64,000 nucleotides of DNA from assembly GCA_016933965.1 (NCBI GenBank), contig JAFGTS010000042.1:1-64000 (forward strand), given 5' to 3'. Numbering within the stretch: position 1 is the first letter of the stretch; each line of letters begins with the position of its first letter. Below the pieces are notes generated by a model that was not told the DNA's origin, searched no databases, and saw only the letters and a program-made list of their open reading frames with translations. This stretch comes from Deltaproteobacteria bacterium. Lineage in GTDB: Bacteria; Desulfobacterota; Syntrophia; Syntrophales; UBA2210. Positions 18,191 through 48,962 of the stretch are shown in pieces. The translations under genes and the position numbers were made by a program.

Positions 18191-18206
18191 TGGCATCGAC
18201 TTTGCA
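18191..18206 (+). promoter_or_regulatory. Candidate sigma-54 (-24/-12) promoter
   Basis: TGGCATCGACTTTGCA has the invariant GG-N10-GC spacing and close matches to both the TGGCA and TTGC elements. It lies about 40 nt before the receiver gene at 18245 and about 450 nt after the end of an NtrC-like activator gene. Confidence 0.65.
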
Positions 18207-18244: not shown

Positions 18245-18631
18245 ATGACAGCGAAAAAGAAAATACTCTTGATCGACGATGACCGGGATTTTCTGATGGC
18301 GACCAAACTGATTCTCGAAAAAGGCGGCTATGAGGTCCACCTCGCCGAGGATGGAAAGACAGGTCTGGAAATGGTGGCGTCGGTCGCGCCGGATCTCACG
18401 ATCACGGACATGATGATGGAAACCTGGGGAGAGGGATTCGCCGTGGTTTCCAAGATCCGCCAGATGAAAGAGGGTAGGGACATGCCCCTGATAGTGCTGA
18501 GCGCCGTCGATCTCCAGGGCCCCTATCAGTCCTATGAACCGTCCGATGAATCGCCGAAAGTCGATATGGTGTTGCACAAACCGGTCAAGGCCGATGACCT
18601 TTTGAAATTCGCAGCCGAACTTCTGGATTGA
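18245..18631 (+). CDS. Single-domain response regulator
   Basis: This 128-residue stand-alone receiver has an acidic pocket (DDD at 11-13), phospho-acceptor D55 (LTITDMMM) and a conserved Lys near 107 (VLHKPVK), but no output domain. Such proteins relay phosphate or bind a partner. The frame is open from 18185, but GGAGGTGA at 18231-18238 sits 6 nt before the ATG at 18245, and the upstream candidate starts overlap the -24/-12 promoter. Only four bases separate it from the receiver-kinase hybrid, so the two form an operon. Confidence 0.92.
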   Translation: MTAKKKILLIDDDRDFLMATKLILEKGGYEVHLAEDGKTGLEMVASVAPDLTITDMMMETWGEGFAVVSKIRQMKEGRDMPLIVLSAVDLQGPYQSYEPSDESPKVDMVLHKPVKADDLLKFAAELLD

Positions 18632-40956: not shown

Positions 40957-42054
40957 GTGGGATTCAGGTGCGGGATAATCGGACTTCCGAACGTGGGAAA
41001 ATCGACGATCTTCAACGCGCTCACGGCAGCCGGCGCGGAGGTGGCGAATTACCCCTTCTGTACGATCGATCCGAACGTGGGCATTATGCCTGTTCCTGAT
41101 GAGCGTCTTGAATTCATAGCGGGCATCATCAAACCGCCGAAATTCACCTACACAACAATGGAGTTCGTCGATATTGCCGGACTGGTACGCGGTGCAAGCA
41201 AAGGAGAGGGATTAGGGAATAAATTCCTCGGTAATATCCGTGATGTGGATGCGATCGTCCACATAGTGAGATGTTTTGATGACCCGAACATATCCCACGT
41301 ACATGGTAAGATCGATCCGCGGAGCGATATTGAGGTCGTCAATACTGAACTGATCCTTGCCGACCTTGAGACGGTGGAGAAAAGGATCGCCAAGGTCGAG
41401 CGGCAGTCAAAAGCGGGGGACAAATCGTTCGTCAGAGAGCTGAACACCTGCGGGAATATCAGGGACATGCTTGGCAGAGGGATACCCGCCCGGCTTGCGG
41501 TCATTGAGAATGAGGAGGATGAGAACACGCTCAGGGAACTCCATTTACTCACGGCTAAGAATATCCTTTACGTGGCGAACGTGAGTGAAACCGTTCTCAG
41601 GAACGGATACCCGTATATTGCGGATGTCCTGGAAACAGCCCGAAGCGAGGGAGCCAGAGCAATTGTGATTTGTGGTGATATGGAATCGGAAATAGCCGCA
41701 CTGCCGCCTGAAGAGAGAAGGGATTTTCTCGATGATCTTGGTCTCGATGAATCGGGTCTCCAGAAACTGGTCAAGGCCGGATACGAGATGCTTGACCTGA
41801 TAACGTTCTATACCACGGCCGGAACGGAACTGAGGGCATGGACGATCAGAAGAGGGACCAGGGCCGCTGCGGCGGCCGGCAGAATCCACTCGGACATGGA
41901 ACGTGGGTTCATCCGTGCCGAGGTCCTTGCCTATGAAGATTTTTTTCGGCTTCAAAGCATGACCGAAGCGAAAGATAAGGGAGTGCTTCGTTTCGAAGGA
42001 AGGGATTATGTCGTTCGGGACGGAGATATCATTTTTTACCGCTTCAAAGTGTAA
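40957..42054 (+). CDS. ychF: Ribosome-binding ATPase YchF
   Basis: This 365-residue Obg-family P-loop ATPase has GLPNVGKST (Walker A) and the NVSE motif in place of NKxD, which is the reason YchF prefers [20 protein letters not shown], a coiled-coil insert and a C-terminal TGS domain ending [11 protein letters not shown] are also present. The frame opens at 40831 inside the terminator. The GTG at 40957 gives the family start [14 protein letters not shown]. Confidence 0.96.
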
Positions 42055-42771
42055 AAACCCTCTCATCGATCTCCTTGAGAAATTTTCGGAAAATGAATAC
42101 AGACCTCGTTTCCAGGTAGAAAATGGGTACTGCATATACCCATTTCATGCTCAGCAAAATCATTCTTGTCAGGGCGCCGGAATCGTGATTGTATGATGCT
42201 CCATGGACGGTTTCACCGATAGTGCTTTCTCCTTTATTTGTAAGTGTAATTGCAGAAAGGTTTGTTTTACGTTTCCTGCGGGAAGCGTCTCCTCGTTCAG
42301 GATCAACGGTCACGCTGGACGTGGTGGGGGGGGAGAGACAGGGTCTTGCTTGTTAACCGCAGAAACCCCCGAAATGGTCACCAAGGGAACAAGCAAGACC
42401 CTTCCTCAAATTCCGATCCGTTTCTGTAACATCCTTCGTCATTCCACAGAGGGCAGTATTTCCTTTTCAGCTCACCTCCAAGAAAATTTCTGTCATTTTC
42501 AGGATTCAAGGTGCCAAGGTTTCAAGGGTTCAAGTGGAAAACCGGGAATGTCCAAGAATGTGAATCTATCTTGGACATCACGCCGAACATGAATGAATAC
42601 GAGCACTATATAAAAGTACAATACGAAAAAACGACCCCTTGACCCCTCTAATCCTTTCCCCACGTCATTCCCGGCCCTCTCATGCTCGGCGTGGCAGCCG
42701 TTCTTGTGCTTTGCCGGGATGTATGGCACAATAAATCTTACTTTAAAAAAAAGCACCTGGTTTGAACGGTT
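42055..42771. other. Long non-coding gap with inverted repeats
   Basis: No reading frame here has a ribosome binding site or protein-like composition. The gap holds an AAATGGGTA/TACCCATTT hairpin (42121-42145), the 14-bp inverted repeat at 42341-42401 and a degenerate TTTCAAGG-type repeat at about 42502-42536. Confidence 0.55.
42341..42401. repeat. 14-bp perfect inverted repeat
   Basis: GGGTCTTGCTTGTT (42341-42354) and AACAAGCAAGACCC (42388-42401) are perfectly complementary around a 33-nt loop. No T run follows on either strand, so it is not a standard terminator. Confidence 0.7.
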
Positions 42772-43740
42772 GTGACTAAGCAGCAATCCATAGGAGACTT
42801 AGGTCGCTTCTGGGGCTTTTCATTCGAGAAGGTTCGGGAGGACCTCCCCCTTGCCGGGAGTCCCGAACGTTCGGTCAACAGGTATGTTCTTGAGGAAGCA
42901 CTGGGTGGGCTGTATATCCTTGAGGAGCTTTCCCCCGGGAGCTTGTACCGGAAACGGAAGATCGCGGAAGCTCTCCATTACCTCCGTGCGGCGGGATTAA
43001 CCCCGATACAGCCCTGTCTGAAGAACCGGCGGGGGGATTTCATTACCGAAACTGAAGGAAAGTACTGGCAGGTCATGCCGTATGTCCAGGGGGTCCCTCT
43101 GCGCCGGCCGTCTTATGTTGACGATGAGTGGCGGGGGAGACTGCTCGCGGACTTCCTTGTCCGATTGCGGGTGGTTGCCGGAGATATCCCATTTTTCAAC
43201 CCGCTGAAGCCCTTTTCTATCGCGGCCTATATCCATCATTTCATGATGGTACTGGAGCGGCATGATCCCGACATGAAACAAAGGGTTTCACCATTGTTCG
43301 ATTTTCTGAAACGATCTTTCATGGATATACACGATGATCTCCCCCGGGGTTTCTGTCATGGCGATTACCATGTGATGAATGTTATCTGGGGCGCCTCCGG
43401 TATAAAAGCAGTCATCGACTGGGAATTTTCCGGGTTCAAACCGAACATGTACGATGTCGCGCTTCTGATAGGCTGTGTGGGCATTGAGGATCCGGAGGCA
43501 CTGACGGGCGGTCTTGTGAATGCATTTCTCTCGGGACTCAGCGGATCGGAACTGATGGAACCTGGCAACCGAAGCGGAAGCGTTCTGCCCGAGTTCGTCC
43601 TTGCCGTTCGTTTTGCCTGGCTTGCAGATTGGCTGAGAAGAGGGGATAGGAATATGGTTTCTCTTGAACTTGACTATATGAGCCTTCTTGTTGAAAATTG
43701 CGAACTTTACCGTGATGCATGGTGCAGGCGGGTATCGTGA
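42772..43740 (+). CDS. APH-family (aminoglycoside phosphotransferase-fold) kinase
   Basis: This 322-residue protein has a kinase fold of the APH/choline-kinase type. The Brenner motif FCHGDYHVMNVIW and the metal-binding AVIDWEFSG are intact near residues 198-225. CotS-type or homoserine-kinase-type members are the closest looking; the substrate is unknown and antibiotic resistance need not be implied. It starts with GTG with no clear Shine-Dalgarno. It stands alone after a 0.7-kb gap and is followed by a strong hairpin at 43747-43776. Confidence 0.8.
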   Translation: MTKQQSIGDLGRFWGFSFEKVREDLPLAGSPERSVNRYVLEEALGGLYILEELSPGSLYRKRKIAEALHYLRAAGLTPIQPCLKNRRGDFITETEGKYWQVMPYVQGVPLRRPSYVDDEWRGRLLADFLVRLRVVAGDIPFFNPLKPFSIAAYIHHFMMVLERHDPDMKQRVSPLFDFLKRSFMDIHDDLPRGFCHGDYHVMNVIWGASGIKAVIDWEFSGFKPNMYDVALLIGCVGIEDPEALTGGLVNAFLSGLSGSELMEPGNRSGSVLPEFVLAVRFAWLADWLRRGDRNMVSLELDYMSLLVENCELYRDAWCRRVS

Positions 43741-43746
43741 GAAAAG

Positions 43747-43776
43747 GAACGGCCGCAGCAGAAGCTGCGGCCGTTC
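43747..43776 (+). terminator. Strong hairpin after the APH gene
   Basis: GAACGGCCGCAGC (43747-43759) pairs perfectly with GCTGCGGCCGTTC (43764-43776) around AGAA. There is no T run, so it may act as an mRNA stabiliser or a Rho-assisted end. Confidence 0.55.
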
Positions 43777-43811
43777 GTAATCCGTATATATACCAAGAGG
43801 CGTTGCAGTCC

Positions 43812-43905
43812 TCTCAGATTCGAGGGGGGGGTGCCGGCGGATGGAAAGGAGGGAACCAAAAACCACCCGCCGGCAGTATAAATTGAGGGGGATTGAGTGC
43901 CTCAA
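43812..43905 (+). other. Structured intergenic region with GGA-rich loops
   Basis: TGCCGGCGG (43832-43840) pairs with CCGCCGGCA (43867-43875) around a loop holding ATGGAAAGGAGGGAACC-type sequence. TTGAGG (43883-43888) pairs with CCTCAA (43900-43905). It lies between convergent genes and contains no credible coding frame. Confidence 0.4.
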
Positions 43906-43975
43906 TACTCGCAGATCCTCATGGACCGGTTGGCGGTGGGCTACTTAAGGAGGGATGTGTGGATTGCCGACAACC

Positions 43976-44185
43976 TTATTCGTCCTGTTGAAAATCTGAG
44001 AGAAAAAACTCTGAGCTTGCTTCCTTCGTTATGGAATTCTTCTTTTCTTCCGTAATCCCGTCGCTCAATTCTTCATTTGTTGATACGAAGAAGCTTTGTT
44101 CTCGATTCTCTTCTTCTTTTAAAAGATCGCTTTTGCTTACGTTTGTAGTTCGTTTTGTTCTTTCTTTCCTGCTTGCCTTTTTCAT
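43976..44185 (-). CDS. Small charged protein, possible sigma-54-controlled gene
   Basis: This 69-residue protein has a basic N-terminus (MKKASRKERTKR) and an acidic Ser/Glu-rich rest, with no hydrophobic segment. The Shine-Dalgarno is weak (TAGGTATTT). The local sequence is AT-rich, unlike the neighbours. A good -24/-12 promoter lies 96-110 nt upstream, and a GAF-AAA+ activator gene ends about 365 nt further upstream. I do not recognise the protein; the transcript could alternatively be a regulatory RNA. Confidence 0.4.
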   Translation of the reverse strand: MKKASRKERTKRTTNVSKSDLLKEEENREQSFFVSTNEELSDGITEEKKNSITKEASSEFFLSDFQQDE

Positions 44186-44280
44186 AAATACCTAAAAACC
44201 CGTTCCAAACACCGCCTTTGAAAATAACCCGGTCTAGCAATCTTGAAAGAACTTGAAGAAGCTGTTTGTTCTATGTGTTC

Positions 44281-44295
44281 GCAATAACGATGCCA
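44281..44295 (-). promoter_or_regulatory. Candidate sigma-54 (-24/-12) promoter
   Basis: The minus strand reads TGGCATCGTTATTGC (44295-44281), with GG-N10-GC spacing and full TGGCA and TTGC matches. The first eight bases equal those of the site at 18191. It points at the 69-residue gene. Confidence 0.6.
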
Positions 44296-44445
44296 TTATC
44301 CGGAAAATCGTTTTTATTTTTTTCAAAAAAATAAAAATGTAAGTGACAACGGTAGGTTATAAAAGAATAACCTTTCAGTGACGGTGGAGATCGCAGCGGA
44401 TTTGTCGGGAGGGAACATGAAATGCCTGCAAGGGGCTGCATTTCT

Positions 44446-44460
44446 GTGCGATATGCGCAC
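44446..44460. promoter_or_regulatory. Palindrome, possible activator site
   Basis: GTGCG-ATATG-CGCAC is a perfect 5-bp dyad about 150 nt upstream of the -24 element at 44295, the usual distance for a sigma-54 enhancer. The activator gene is next to it. The rest of 44186-44549 holds no gene. Confidence 0.35.
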
Positions 44461-44549
44461 TATTATGAGGCTATCGGCTCTTCTTCGCTGAATATATGCA
44501 GCAGGAGAGGTGTGCTATTATAGAACATGCTGTTTGATATTCGCACACA

Positions 44550-46664
44550 TTAGTGAGGGGGAAGAAAATCAAAGGTGGAATCATCATAGTCTTCAACTTT
44601 TTTCAGCTCACGGATCAGCGTGTACCGGGATATTCCCAGTTGCCGGGCCGCCGCCGTTTTATTACCCCTGTTGATCTCAAGGGCTTTTCTGAGAACTCGT
44701 CCCTTGATATTGCCGATAAGCTGGTCCGTCAGGCTTTTATAATCAACCAAACGGGTCTTGTCGAGTTCAAGCGTGTCTACCAGGGTGAGATCAAGTTCCT
44801 GGGGAGCCGTTTTCTTGATCTCAGCCGGAAAGTCCTCGGGAGTTATGACGCTTTTTACATTCTGCATGATCATGACCCGTTCGACGATATTTTTCAGTTC
44901 CCGGACGTTTCCGGGCCACGGATACTGGCGCAGAATTGTTTCGGCCTTGCTTGAAAAGCCCTTCACGTGTTTGTTGAACTTGTTGTTGAATTCCTCGATG
45001 TAATGGTATGCAAGAATAATGATGTCTTCATCGCGTTCTCTGAGCGGTGGAATATTGATAGGGACGACGCTGATCCGGTAGAACAGGTCTTCCCGGAATG
45101 TTCCCTTGCTCACCATCTGGCTGAGGTCCCTGTTCGTGGAGAATATGAACCGCACATCAGTAGGGATATTCTCGGTCCCGCCGAGACGCCTGATATATCC
45201 GTCCTCGATCATGCGAAGGAATTTTGCCTGAACGGAAAGACTCATCTCCCCGATCTCATCGAGAAGCATTGTGCCGCCTGAGGCATGTTCGATCAGACCA
45301 AACTTGCGTTTGCGAGCGTCCGTAAAGGCACCCGCCTCATATCCAAAGAGTTCGCTTTCCAGAAGTGTGCCGGGAATGGCGGCGCAATTAACATCAACGA
45401 ATCGTTTTGATTTTCTGTTGCTCTGCCGGTGTATCGCCCGGGCAATGAGCTCCTTTCCCGTTCCGCTCTCTCCCTGGACCAGAATGCTGGTGTTGTGCCC
45501 GGCAACCTCCTCGATGATGCGGAAAATTTCCAGCATCTTCTGCGAGCTGCCGATTATGTTGTGAAACCCGAGAAGTTTGTACTCCCGTTCTTTGAGCACC
45601 GCGATCTCGGATTTAAGCGATTTGGCCTCTCGTGAAAGGAGGGAGTGCATGATGGCGCTGTCGTAAGATGTGGCGGCGTTGATGGCGAGAATGTCCAGGA
45701 AATTCCGTTGATCGCTGGTATAGATGCCGTAACGTTTGCTCAGGTACAGAACGCCTTTGAACTTCTCTTTTATCTTGAAGGGGATGGCGATTTCCACGGG
45801 AAACCCCTCAAAGAGCGGGGGGAGCCCAAAGCGCTGGGCATGGTCCTGAATGATGGTTTTCTGTGTTTCCAGGGATTTCTGCACGATGCTGCTCTGGATC
45901 TTCAGAAAGCATTCGTTTTTCTTATCGGTATAGACCTTCTCACCGTCACTGATGAGTGAATTGTTTTTCTCGACATCGAGAAAGTACATGAGTGCATGAT
46001 CGGCGTTCCCGATTTTCAGGGCGCTGTTGATCGTGAGCTCATGCATCCGGTCCAGATCATAGATGGCGTTGAGCTGAGAGGCGGCTTCCTGCAGAACGAG
46101 CAGTTTCTTTATCTTGTCACTGTTCTCCTCAAAAAGTTTGGCGATCTGGATGACAACACTGACCTGGTTCGCAAAGGTCAGAAGGATGTTGACCTGTTCC
46201 GGTGAAAATTGGGACCGTTCCTTTGACCAGAGACTGATGATGCCGACGATCTCATCCTCGATCCTCAGAGGGGCATAGAAGGTGGAGCCTCTTTTATAGA
46301 AATTAGTGATTTTCCTATCGGTTTCGGTTATTCTCGGGTCCGTTGCCGAATCTTCCAGGGCGAGGTATTGTCCCGTTTTCGCCACCAGGGTTTCGAGGCA
46401 TTGGTGACGGTTCAGGTTGAGATTGACCGAAAAGGCACGTTTCGATTCTACGGGGGTGTAGTTCTTGACGACCTTGGTTACGAGATTCTCCCGTTCTTCG
46501 TCGAGGAGAAGAATGATTCCCCGATGAAACCCAACGGTTTCAACGACTTCATCAAGGATTTTCTGAAGAATATCGTCGAAACCCAGAGGTGTCGTTATCA
46601 GATTGCTGATGCGGAAAAAGCTTTCAAGAAGCCGTTCCGCGGAATATTCAGACTGTGATCTCAT
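44550..46664 (-). CDS. GAF-domain sigma-54 activator with GAFTDA loop
   Basis: This 704-residue regulator has two GAF sensor domains (about 20-175 and 190-350), a short coiled coil, an AAA+ domain (Walker A GESGTGKE, Walker B GGTMLLDEIGEM) and a Fis-type HTH at the C-terminus (KTAAARQLGISRYTLIREL). There is no receiver, so input is probably a small ligand or redox signal through GAF. The sigma-54 contact loop reads GAFTDA (445-450), with Asp at 449 for the usual Gly. Such variants occur in the family, but they change the sigma-54 contact. Its own upstream region holds a weaker -24/-12 match. Confidence 0.92.
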   Translation of the reverse strand: MRSQSEYSAERLLESFFRISNLITTPLGFDDILQKILDEVVETVGFHRGIILLLDEERENLVTKVVKNYTPVESKRAFSVNLNLNRHQCLETLVAKTGQYLALEDSATDPRITETDRKITNFYKRGSTFYAPLRIEDEIVGIISLWSKERSQFSPEQVNILLTFANQVSVVIQIAKLFEENSDKIKKLLVLQEAASQLNAIYDLDRMHELTINSALKIGNADHALMYFLDVEKNNSLISDGEKVYTDKKNECFLKIQSSIVQKSLETQKTIIQDHAQRFGLPPLFEGFPVEIAIPFKIKEKFKGVLYLSKRYGIYTSDQRNFLDILAINAATSYDSAIMHSLLSREAKSLKSEIAVLKEREYKLLGFHNIIGSSQKMLEIFRIIEEVAGHNTSILVQGESGTGKELIARAIHRQSNRKSKRFVDVNCAAIPGTLLESELFGYEAGAFTDARKRKFGLIEHASGGTMLLDEIGEMSLSVQAKFLRMIEDGYIRRLGGTENIPTDVRFIFSTNRDLSQMVSKGTFREDLFYRISVVPINIPPLRERDEDIIILAYHYIEEFNNKFNKHVKGFSSKAETILRQYPWPGNVRELKNIVERVMIMQNVKSVITPEDFPAEIKKTAPQELDLTLVDTLELDKTRLVDYKSLTDQLIGNIKGRVLRKALEINRGNKTAAARQLGISRYTLIRELKKVEDYDDSTFDFLPPH

Positions 46665-46749
46665 TTTCTGGTTCTTCTCCCCTGTAGTTGCAGAAAAGGG
46701 TTCGAGGGTTCAACAGCAACTTTTTCGGAGGTGAGCCCATTTTTTTATG

Positions 46750-46767
46750 TTGCACTGTCCTTGCCGG
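46750..46767 (-). promoter_or_regulatory. Weak -24/-12 match upstream of the GAF activator
   Basis: The minus strand reads CCGGCAAGGACAGTGCAA, with GG-N10-GC spacing but mismatches in both boxes. It could mean sigma-54 autoregulation of the activator gene; this is weak evidence. Confidence 0.3.
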
Positions 46768-46931
46768 GGCTCGACTGCTTCGATTTCAAGGGTGGGAATA
46801 ATAGCCGGAACGGGAGGAAATTGCAAGACGGTTGTTTTTCCTAATGAGAAAGAAGTGTTCATTCCTGAGCAGCCGAAGGATTTTCTTGATCGACAGAAAT
46901 AGTGACATGGGTCGGAATCAATATCTCGCTT

Positions 46932-48962
46932 TTATGTTCTGTCAAACTTCAGAAACTGCATCGAAAAGGTCGCTCTTCCCTGTGTGGCCGAACGAAGATC
47001 CGTGGAATAGCCGAACATCTGTCTGAGAGGTACTTTCGCCTGTATTTCGCTGATGGGACCCTTGTGGTGTATCTGCTGGATATCTCCTTTTCGTGCATTG
47101 ATGTTTCCGATGACATCTCCCATGAATTCACTGGGGGTGATGATGTCCACGACCATGATCGGCTCGAGCAGAAAGGCGCCGGCCTTTCCGCATCCGTCGG
47201 CGAAGGCCGTTGTTGCGGCTATCCGGTATCCGAGCTCCGACGATTCGCCGTCGCGGCAGGAACCCCCCGTTATCGTGACAATGATGTCCGTTACGGGATA
47301 CCCTGCCGCGCACCCGCTGAGGGCGGCATCGGAGATCCCTTCCCTGACCGCTTCCCGGTATTCCATGGGTATGGAACCTTCAGCAGCGTTATCGATGATA
47401 CGAAAGCCGCCACCCCGCTCGTTCGGTTCCAGATGGAGCATGACGCGGCCGTAATGTTTTTTGTCACCCAGTTCCCGATCAAAGACACCTTCAATGTCGA
47501 CGGTCGACCCGATCGTTTCCCGGTAGACGACCTTCGGTTTTCCCACGTTGACCCGTGTATTGAAACTTCTCATCAACCGGTCTATCACTATTTCAAGGTG
47601 AAGCTCACCCATTCCCGAAATGATGGTCTGTGCCGTTTCATCGTCGTACGTGACCTTCAGGGTGGGGTCCTCATCAGTCAGCTTGGCCAGGGCGGTCGCG
47701 AGCTTTTCTTGATCCTGCGGTGTCTTTGCTTCCACGGCCTGACTGATGACCGGTTGATAGAATTCGATGGGTTCAAGGATCAGGGGATGGGCCTCATCGC
47801 AGAGAGTTTCCCCCGTCGAGGTCTCCTTCAGACCGGCCACAGCGACGATGCTGCCCGCCCCGGCTTCTTCGATCCGCTCCCGTTTATTGGCGTGCATTTT
47901 CAGAAGGCGGGCCACCCGTTCCTTGATCTTCCTGTTGGCGTTGTACACCTCGTTCCCGACCTTCATTTTTCCCGCGTATATGCGTGTGTAGGTTACCTTC
48001 CGCCCCTCGTCCATCATGATCTTGAAGGCAAGGGCGGCAAAAGGTTCTTTATTGCTGCTGACACGTTTTTCCTTTTCACCGGTGACGGGGTTGATCCCCT
48101 CTATGGGAGGGACCTCCGCGGGAGAGGGGAGGTAATCGACGACCGAATCAAGGATGGGCTGGATACCGATATTCCGGAGGGCCGCGCCACAGAGTACCGG
48201 CACTCCTTTCAGTGAAATGGTCGCCCTCCTGATGGCCTTCATGATATCCTGGACCGGTATTTCATCGCCGTTCAGATACTGCTCGGCTATCTCATCATCC
48301 AGGTCGGCAAGTGTCTCGATCAGCGTTTCACGATGCTTCCGGGTTTCTTCTCCGCGGTCAGGGGGGACGTCGGCAACGCTGAACTGCAGCCCCAGGGTCC
48401 GGTCGTCCCAGGTGATGACCCTGTCGTACAGCAGGTCGATCACCCCCGTGAGCGTGTCCCGTTCCCAATAGGGAAGTTGCAGAATCAGCGGCGTCGAGTG
48501 AAATCGCTCCTTCATCATCTGAATAGTCCCGGTATAGTCGGCCCCGATCCGGTCCAGTTTGTTGATAAAGGCTATCTTGGGAACGTGATATTTGTCCGCC
48601 TGTCTCCAGACCGTTTCGGATTGCGGTTCGACACCGCCGACGGCACAGAAGACGACGATAACGCCGTCAAGCACCCGCAGGGAACGTTCCACCTCTATGG
48701 TGAAATCAACGTGTCCGGGGGTGTCGATGATCTGCACCTCCGTATCACGCCAGGCACAGGTGGTGACGGCCGAGGTAATGGTGATACCCCGCTCCTGCTC
48801 CTGGGGCATCCAGTCCATGACGGCTTCACCGTTATGGACCTCGCCCATTTTATGGGTTTTCCCCGTGTAGAAGAGTATCCGCTCCGTGACGGTCGTCTTG
48901 CCGGCGTCGATGTGGGCGACAATGCCGATATTCCGGATTTTTGACAGTTTCTTCGATGACAT
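46932..48962 (-). CDS. EF-G paralogue (divergent elongation factor G)
   Basis: This 676-residue translational GTPase has five EF-G-like domains. G1 [10 protein letters not shown]2 RGIT, G3 DTPGHVD, G4 NKLD and the GAAL region are intact, so it should bind and hydrolyse GTP. In domain IV the tip loop that usually reads YHDVDSSE is SCRDGESSE, so the conserved tip His is lost. It is thus probably a second EF-G (EF-G2 or spdEFG-like) rather than the main translocase; a role in recycling or stress translation is inference. It lies 26 nt after the GerMN gene, not in a str operon. Confidence 0.9.

Follow-up and report, generated by a model that had tools for sequence, protein, structure and literature searches.

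Among the small RNAs (sRNAs) already described, the "cuckoo" RNAs CcsR1-4 of Rhodobacter sphaeroides, together with CcaF1, combine an RpoHI/RpoHII promoter, a DUF1127 protein and sRNAs derived from a 3' untranslated region (3'-UTR), according to the available parts of the reports on them (PMC10253847, PMC8625941). In parallel, the NfeR1/alpha-r14 and AbcR1/2 RNAs of rhizobia carry conserved unpaired anti-Shine-Dalgarno motifs, CCUCCUCCC or CUCCUCCC, in hairpins, the stems of alpha-r14 being variable, and act on messages for metabolism and transport, which they silence through pairing at the ribosome site, under the control of LsrB, NtrC or RpoH1, as far as the accessible text of these papers goes (PMC10746234, PMC8844928). 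In Azotobacter vinelandii, an RpoN-dependent sRNA promoter lies in the cbrB-crcZ interval of the CbrB-CrcZ system, and CrcZ alleviates Hfq-Crc repression, as stated in the excerpted part of PMC6292655. Here we describe a structured RNA behind a sigma-54 activator gene in a 64,000-nucleotide (nt) stretch, called the window, of a Deltaproteobacteria bacterium of the order Syntrophales (GCA_016933965.1, positions 1 to 64,000 of contig JAFGTS010000042.1); the stretch is part of one (C42) of the 55 contigs of its 2.85-Mb genome. The best explanation of the whole, which we hold with moderate confidence, is that of a sigma-54-switched, 3'-UTR-derived sRNA pairing with strong Shine-Dalgarno sequences.

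A sequence-only reading of the window had ended its feature at position 43976, and this boundary excludes the most conserved part of the predicted transcript, namely the RNA at 43747-43875. This anti-Shine-Dalgarno RNA had been overlooked, and it changes the meaning of the finding. Its modules follow one another in the order H1, C-run, H2 and terminator H3:

43832..43875, minus strand: hairpin H1, a 13-bp stem whose loop holds CCCUCCUUU, the anti-Shine-Dalgarno letters (from fold, covariation and loop conservation)
43793..43817, minus strand: hairpin H2 (UCUGAGAGG...CCUCU), covarying (from fold and covariation)
43747..43776, minus strand: hairpin H3, a GC-rich 13-bp stem followed by CTTTTC, a predicted intrinsic terminator (from the fold)
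43785..43875, minus strand: full match to the covariance model R1, 84.3 bits, the window sequence being among the 21 training rows

The model R1 was made from a two-hairpin consensus of 21 aligned units, and the alignment of 93 distinct rows fitted to it, training rows included, shows two-sided changes in 17 of the 20 pairs. Pairing cells reach 94.6% in these rows, against 81.6% in shuffles and 34-53% with slid partners. The loop CCCUCCUUU is 96-100% identical per column and is flanked by invariant GG/CC stem ends, a near-invariant UUU stands at the loop start, and the stem varies with compensation. In the window itself, the segment 43741-43892 folds with a z-score of -7.9 (H1 alone, -5.9), and the H1 loop is predicted to be unpaired apart from a helix of two base pairs that forms in the minimum-energy fold, as befits an anti-Shine-Dalgarno sequence in a single-stranded loop. 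The loop repeats the last letters of the 16S rRNA 3' end of a relative (G027), which reads GGATCACCTCCTTTCT; this 16S end was not found in the own genome, and a similar pattern gave no match in 59 of the 60 genomes searched, complete ones included, where it is perhaps missing. Rfam release 15 gave for window positions 42000-47500 only a long non-coding RNA far below cut-off (E 0.59), elsewhere in that span, and no match up to E 1 in 13 further loci or up to E 0.5 in seven more.

The model matches all lie in one order. R1 matches were found in 86 of the 155 genomes of the order, representing 42 of its 53 genera, and, in a sample of the phylum (n=395, at most ten candidates per genome scored), in eight genomes, all from the order, which contributed 16 of the sampled genomes, and in none of the approximately 379 others. 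The hairpin pattern is matched exactly by 53 stretches, whose record titles name Deltaproteobacteria, Syntrophales/Syntrophobacterales, Syntrophaceae, Syntrophus and, unspecifically, Pseudomonadota/Proteobacteria. The own genome contains two true copies. The second one (C29:50662-50751; L028 7663-7752, minus strand, and ~8140) stands behind an NtrC-type response regulator and a histidine kinase, with TGGCACGATTTGTG upstream and another small open reading frame (ORF), and loci resembling this second class occur in G001, G009, G140 and G141. From these sequences, it seems that two or more sigma-54 circuits share one 3' module. A dispersed-repeat origin was considered and rejected, given that three of the five pattern hits in the own genome do not fold into the stem. 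As a separate observation, genome G154 has at least three RNA loci, on contigs C17, C23 and C6 (L065, L082/L160 and L094/L161), all of them equipped with GTGCG-type dyads and with a small ORF of their own.

The activator, promoter and small ORF that precede the RNA were, in contrast to the RNA, already noticed in the sequence-only reading, and they are present as it had described them. Its AT-rich island is borne out by a GC content of 0.37 at 44000-44399, as against ~0.48-0.52 in the adjacent windows; the -24/-12 site shares its first eight bases with a site at 18191-18205 on the plus strand, a GTGCG dyad lies ~150 nt upstream of it, the GAF-type activator gene adjoins, and the 69-codon ORF is there:

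44550..46664, minus strand: activator gene, 704 aa, with GAF domains, a sigma-54 AAA+ domain (GAFTDA loop) and a Fis-type helix-turn-helix (HTH) (Pfam, orthologues)
44532..44546, no strand: imperfect dyad I, GTTTGATATTCGCAC, two mismatches, a putative activator site; dyad pairs ~20 nt apart recur in several relatives
44512..44526, no strand: imperfect dyad II, GTGCTATTATAGAAC, three mismatches, from its sequence and, for the position, by analogy with relatives
44446..44460, no strand: perfect dyad III, GTGCGATATGCGCAC, a putative enhancer site (sequence and conservation)
44281..44295, minus strand: predicted sigma-54 -24/-12 promoter, TGGCATCGTTATTGC (pattern match and conservation)
43976..44185, minus strand: small ORF, 69 aa, charged, with the twin motifs SFFVS and EFFLSD (ORF list, ORFs of relatives, substitution ratio)
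43928..43975, minus strand: possible degenerate extra hairpin after the small ORF, with a CCCUCCUU loop, weak by sequence and rejected, its fold being no better than shuffles

The activator shows by Pfam the GAF, Sigma54_activat, AAA lid and Fis-type HTH domains, and thus has both the AAA+ sigma-54 interaction domain and the Fis-type HTH of a bacterial enhancer-binding protein. The usual loop of such proteins is GAFTGA; the variant GAFTDA was found in all 20 of the activator orthologues looked at, that of the window included. Full-length orthologues occur within the order, mostly with 54-70% identity, a close one being present in 72 of the 155 genomes (E <= 1e-150); in a phylum sample (n=297, three candidates per genome scored) an orthologue was found in five genomes, all in the order. 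The sequence-only reading had named the absence of the island from activator-bearing relatives as a result that would speak against it. Instead, 71 of the 72 activator genomes contain the RNA element, and in at least 63 of the 72 it lies directly downstream, within 2.5 kb on the same strand, with a median distance of 601 nt. As to the nine other genomes, in G012 the activator is divided between two contigs and the RNA stands behind the second piece, in G034, G048 and G109 the activator lies less than 700 nt from a contig end, G106 has no explanation of this kind, and four belong to genus g25, in which activator and RNA are unlinked. Three RNA loci of this genus were looked at: upstream GTGCG dyads are present in G036 and G102, only weaker ones in G101, and TGGTA...TTGC sites were seen by eye in all three. 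That these dyads are kept at the RNA locus even though the activator is unlinked supports a role for them at the promoter of the RNA rather than at the activator gene. When the sequence downstream of 20 activator loci was read (L018 having no sequence left), the hairpin GGYGGRTGGTTT...CCCTCCTTTCCAYCCRCC was found in 18 of the 19 others, the exception being L022, where it is not behind the activator and the RNA lies elsewhere in the genome. In most loci, the interval between activator and hairpin holds GTGCG dyads and a -24/-12 site, followed by a small ORF, by a uspA-like gene and a small ORF, or by a GAGACC...GGTCTC hairpin. On the other side of the activator, an EF-G paralogue (Pfam) lies upstream in the window (46932-48962, minus strand), where a YchF gene is convergent, and an EF-G motif is present upstream of the activator in 14 of the 20 loci (L003-L022), a translation-related neighbourhood.

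The promoter pattern and the dyads are likewise conserved. TGGCAYN5TTGC occurs exactly twice in the window, at 44281-44295 on the minus strand and at 18191-18205 on the plus strand (TGGCATCGACTTTGC), where 0.28 are expected and 3 of 100 shuffles reach two; by a sigma-54 weight matrix, the promoter site ranks only fourth in the window, with four sites observed at that score and 3.3 expected in shuffles. We therefore rejected single-site statistics as proof of a promoter, the weight-matrix score not being significant alone, and the significance of the site comes from its conservation across loci. Over the 1350 nt upstream of the RNA, 48 of 72 loci show a sigma-54 pattern on the same strand, with 0 for the reversed pattern, and 52 of the 72 show a GTGCGN5CGCAC dyad, one mismatch being allowed, with 3 for the reversed pattern; the predicted sigma-54 control of the small gene, as proposed earlier, is supported in this conserved form and not by the single site. 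These 72 loci are related, several per genome, and so not independent. They derive from 71 loci chosen among 123 model matches and loci related to these, a choice that passed over duplicates, additional hairpins within a cluster and loci with short upstream sequence; L056 was then dropped (short upstream), and L062 and a second match in L072, both without either pattern, were added. In the window, GTGCGATATGCGCAC is the sole exact GTGCGN5CGCAC, and it is one of two in the 2.85-Mb genome. Downstream of H1, 36 of 68 loci have a terminator-like hairpin with a T-run on the strand of the RNA, 6 have one on the opposite strand and 4 on both, after 3 of 71 loci with short downstream sequence had been dropped.

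Some further features accompany these promoters. A perfect 13-nt AT palindrome, TTTTTATTTTTTT/AAAAAAATAAAAA, lies at 44311-44337 between the enhancer dyad and the promoter. The site at 18191-18205 precedes a stand-alone response-regulator receiver gene (18245-18628), and no dyad with up to two mismatches was found less than 1.5 kb away. A second conserved 5' hairpin, GAGACC...GGTCTC, mostly with an inner CCTTTA...AAAGG, stands just after the sigma-54 site in 11 of the 53 loci with a loose sigma-54 match (L007, L011, L014-L017, L020, L067, L077, L092 and L174), and in L006 and L009 a universal-stress-protein-like gene, named from its letters, lies between promoter and small ORF.

Whether the protein or the RNA is the more general product was left as an alternative in the sequence-only reading, which held that either could be the effector of the activator; this either-or form holds, given that both are conserved, the RNA more widely, and what it had missed is the anti-Shine-Dalgarno nature of the latter. 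An ORF with FF[LVI]S-type motifs, as a rule two of them and the final one at the C terminus or close to it, was recognized by eye in 35 of the 56 distinct loci, the ORF listing having missed at least one (L086, the same locus as L012, where the ORF is present). In 11 of 13 ORF pairs, some of which share members, the nonsynonymous/synonymous ratio is below 0.5, the others giving 0.87 and 1.43 (the latter with seven changes); 3 of 26 ORFs were left out of this test, since their frame was not recovered. The 69-aa protein has no match in Pfam, NCBIfam or PHROG. In contrast, 13 of the 48 sigma-54 loci have the RNA as close as 51-159 nt to the start of the -24 element, a distance too short for a gene of 60 codons. 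Genus g3 has three loci in which the RNA follows an EF-G-like gene (by motif) at a distance of 200-271 nt, with ATG frames of at most 17 codons in the interval, and none of the five g3 genomes in which the RNA occurs has a close activator (E <= 1e-150). From its twin FF motifs and purifying selection, the 69-aa protein looks real but dispensable, and the RNA is the commoner product, because loci keep it without room for, or a frame of, the small ORF.

As to the possible targets, AAAGGAGGN3-9ATG has 134 matches in the own genome, a few sites being counted twice, compared with 11 for the reversed pattern. Eight of 11 sites precede genes of acyl-CoA type (by eye; ten stretches of long complementarity were picked from the first 100 of the 134 sites), and so do 11 of the 21 instances of AAAGGAGGG before a gene start in 822 kb of the own genome, their genes being acyl-CoA enzymes, again by eye. 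The acyl-CoA ligase gene of contig C22 (L177) has a AAAGGAGGGAACC leader. Among genes with AAAGGAGG or AAAGGAGGG, the Pfam AMP-binding family makes up 8 of 45, as against 4 of 110 controls (p 0.006), and the three families AMP-binding, ECH and acyl-CoA dehydrogenase, counted as disjoint, together account for 14 of 45 and, in the controls, for 15 of 110 (p 0.02); the category was chosen after the first hits, the genes are clustered on one contig, 2 of 47 test genes that crossed stretch borders were left out, and the 110 controls were drawn from 263. In addition, one-mismatch dyads at C13:45716 and C13:45788, followed by the sigma-54-like site TGGCATTTTTCTTGC (read by eye, a stricter scan having listed none), stand before a two-gene CoA-transferase operon (L155 ~1945-2321, corresponding to G000:C13:45444-45820). 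These dyads imply that the activator regulon may touch acyl-CoA metabolism, the operon being a possible second target of the activator.

We propose the following mechanism. The GAF-domain activator would bind the GTGCG dyads and, upon its own signal, open the sigma-54 promoter, giving a predicted transcript of ~530 nt that starts near 44269, ends with the terminator at 43747 and would encode the twin-FF-motif protein and carry the structured RNA at its 3' end. H3 would terminate transcription, and the RNA probably acts, possibly after processing, as a 3'-UTR-derived sRNA. Its H1 loop CCCUCCUUU, exposed on a GC-rich stem, would base-pair with messages bearing a AAAGGAGG(G) Shine-Dalgarno and block ribosome entry, occluding ribosome binding sites by analogy with NfeR1 and AbcR1/2; that the RNA pairs with messages at all we judge reasonably probable. 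The likely purpose would be to slow down strongly initiated messages, perhaps those of acyl-CoA catabolism among them, in response to nutrients or stress. Many bacteria of the order would keep such a switchable RNA, probably for the silencing of chosen genes. More broadly, and as a tentative and rather doubtful proposal, this might be an order-wide translation switch making on-demand loop copies of the free 16S rRNA 3' tail via an energy- or nutrient-sensing sigma-54 activator, with which syntrophs near the thermodynamic limit would lower the output of strongly initiated messages, starting with those for catabolic acyl-CoA enzymes, and would need to make no new repressors; the twin-FF protein would be the partner of this switch, and the whole would have evolved independently of the alphaproteobacterial anti-Shine-Dalgarno RNAs.

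Several results weigh against this mechanism. The RNA is lacking in 69 of the 155 genomes of the order, and 15 genomes have it with no close activator detected. The strict sigma-54 pattern fails at 24 of the 72 loci, some of these being near misses and others, behind EF-G or response regulators, representing another kind of control, and a few of the 48 matches look accidental, for instance that of L165 at -930. Dyads with mismatches are not over-represented, with 14 in the window as against 27 expected, and 39 in the genome as against 66 for the reversed pattern. A loop identical in letters to the 16S tail fits every strong Shine-Dalgarno sequence, so the 134 sites are no proof of targeting, and the enrichment of acyl-CoA genes, modest and post hoc, is a lead only.

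Other explanations of the same locus have also to be considered. The loop could be a decoy or mimic of the 16S 3' end, titrating a protein that recognises this tail or pyrimidine-rich RNA in the way CrcZ relieves Hfq/Crc repression, which would agree with its 16S-tail letters, with the UUU at its start that is unneeded for pairing with AAAGGAGGG, with the layout of an activator followed by a sigma-54 RNA as in cbrB-crcZ, and with the EF-G motifs and the convergent YchF gene around the activator; however, it comes without a candidate protein, and the loop is explained more simply by Shine-Dalgarno pairing, and for these reasons we consider a decoy unlikely. Were the small twin-FF protein the effector, and did the hairpins serve its message only as a 3' element for stability or termination, the low substitution ratios of 11 of 13 pairs (not all independent) and the ORF seen in 35 of 56 loci would be accounted for, but not the RNA kept without room for the ORF at 13 of 48 sigma-54 loci or without any ORF at the three g3 loci, in genomes with no close activator detected, nor the C-run instead of a U-tail after H1, nor an invariant loop that termination does not need; we regard this as quite improbable.

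Less probable still is an action in cis, by pairing with the Shine-Dalgarno of its own transcript or as an antisense to the convergent neighbour. The second-class leaders of G001 and G009, which hold GCAAAGGAGG, would suit it, yet the activator-side small ORFs mostly have no strong Shine-Dalgarno before their likely start (by eye), several loci have no ORF, and the neighbour genes vary. Finally, a functionless AT-rich intergenic region or a dispersed repeat, for which it could be said that the single promoter site is not significant alone, is made very unlikely, to the point of being nearly negligible, by conservation, covariation, linkage and the presence of only two copies in the own genome. 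Pairing of the exposed loop with Shine-Dalgarno sequences remains our preferred reading.

In the open-licence literature, no description of this RNA was found among the matches listed, nor any paper combining Syntrophus aciditrophicus with sRNA or Syntrophales with small RNA. For syntrophic Syntrophales, the locus is a concrete candidate for the regulation of energy metabolism at the post-transcriptional level; it brings together, in little space, an activator, a promoter, the RNA and targets that can be tested, and the covariance model offered here retrieves the RNA throughout an order.

In comparison with known systems, CcsR hairpin loops carry the C-rich motif CCUCCUCCC, and repeated A-rich motifs that bind Hfq/Crc characterize RNAs of the CbrB-CrcZ type. 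Like CcsR1-4, as far as the available parts of the reports on them go, our locus joins a small-protein gene and an RNA in one predicted transcript with an alternative-sigma promoter and a terminator, here known from sequence alone, and the position of the RNA fits that of the CcsR sRNAs, which are processed from the 3' part of their transcript by RNase E. Unlike them, it shows a conserved sigma-54 pattern beside an activator gene of its own (no search was made for RpoH patterns), its loop is CCCUCCUUU and not CCUCCUCCC, and its 69-aa protein has no Pfam family and hence is no DUF1127 protein. With NfeR1 and AbcR1/2 it shares anti-Shine-Dalgarno letters in a hairpin loop, and it differs in the letters of the motif, the sigma-54 pattern and the small ORF, the accessible text mentioning no such ORF for NfeR1/AbcR. 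As in CbrB-CrcZ, a predicted sigma-54 sRNA adjoins the activator gene, by sequence in at least 63 of 72 genomes; unlike there, it has anti-Shine-Dalgarno hairpins, of which the excerpted CrcZ report makes no mention. SisA-D of Caulobacter crescentus, from a different phylum, would be alike in the feast-to-famine transition, judging from part of PMC12559287. If our reading is true, the combination of an anti-Shine-Dalgarno sRNA and a small protein arose a second time, outside the alphaproteobacteria and under sigma-54. The best reading, by analogy, is that this RNA works like the alphaproteobacterial CcsR, NfeR1 and AbcR RNAs, while standing apart from them in both motif and protein family.
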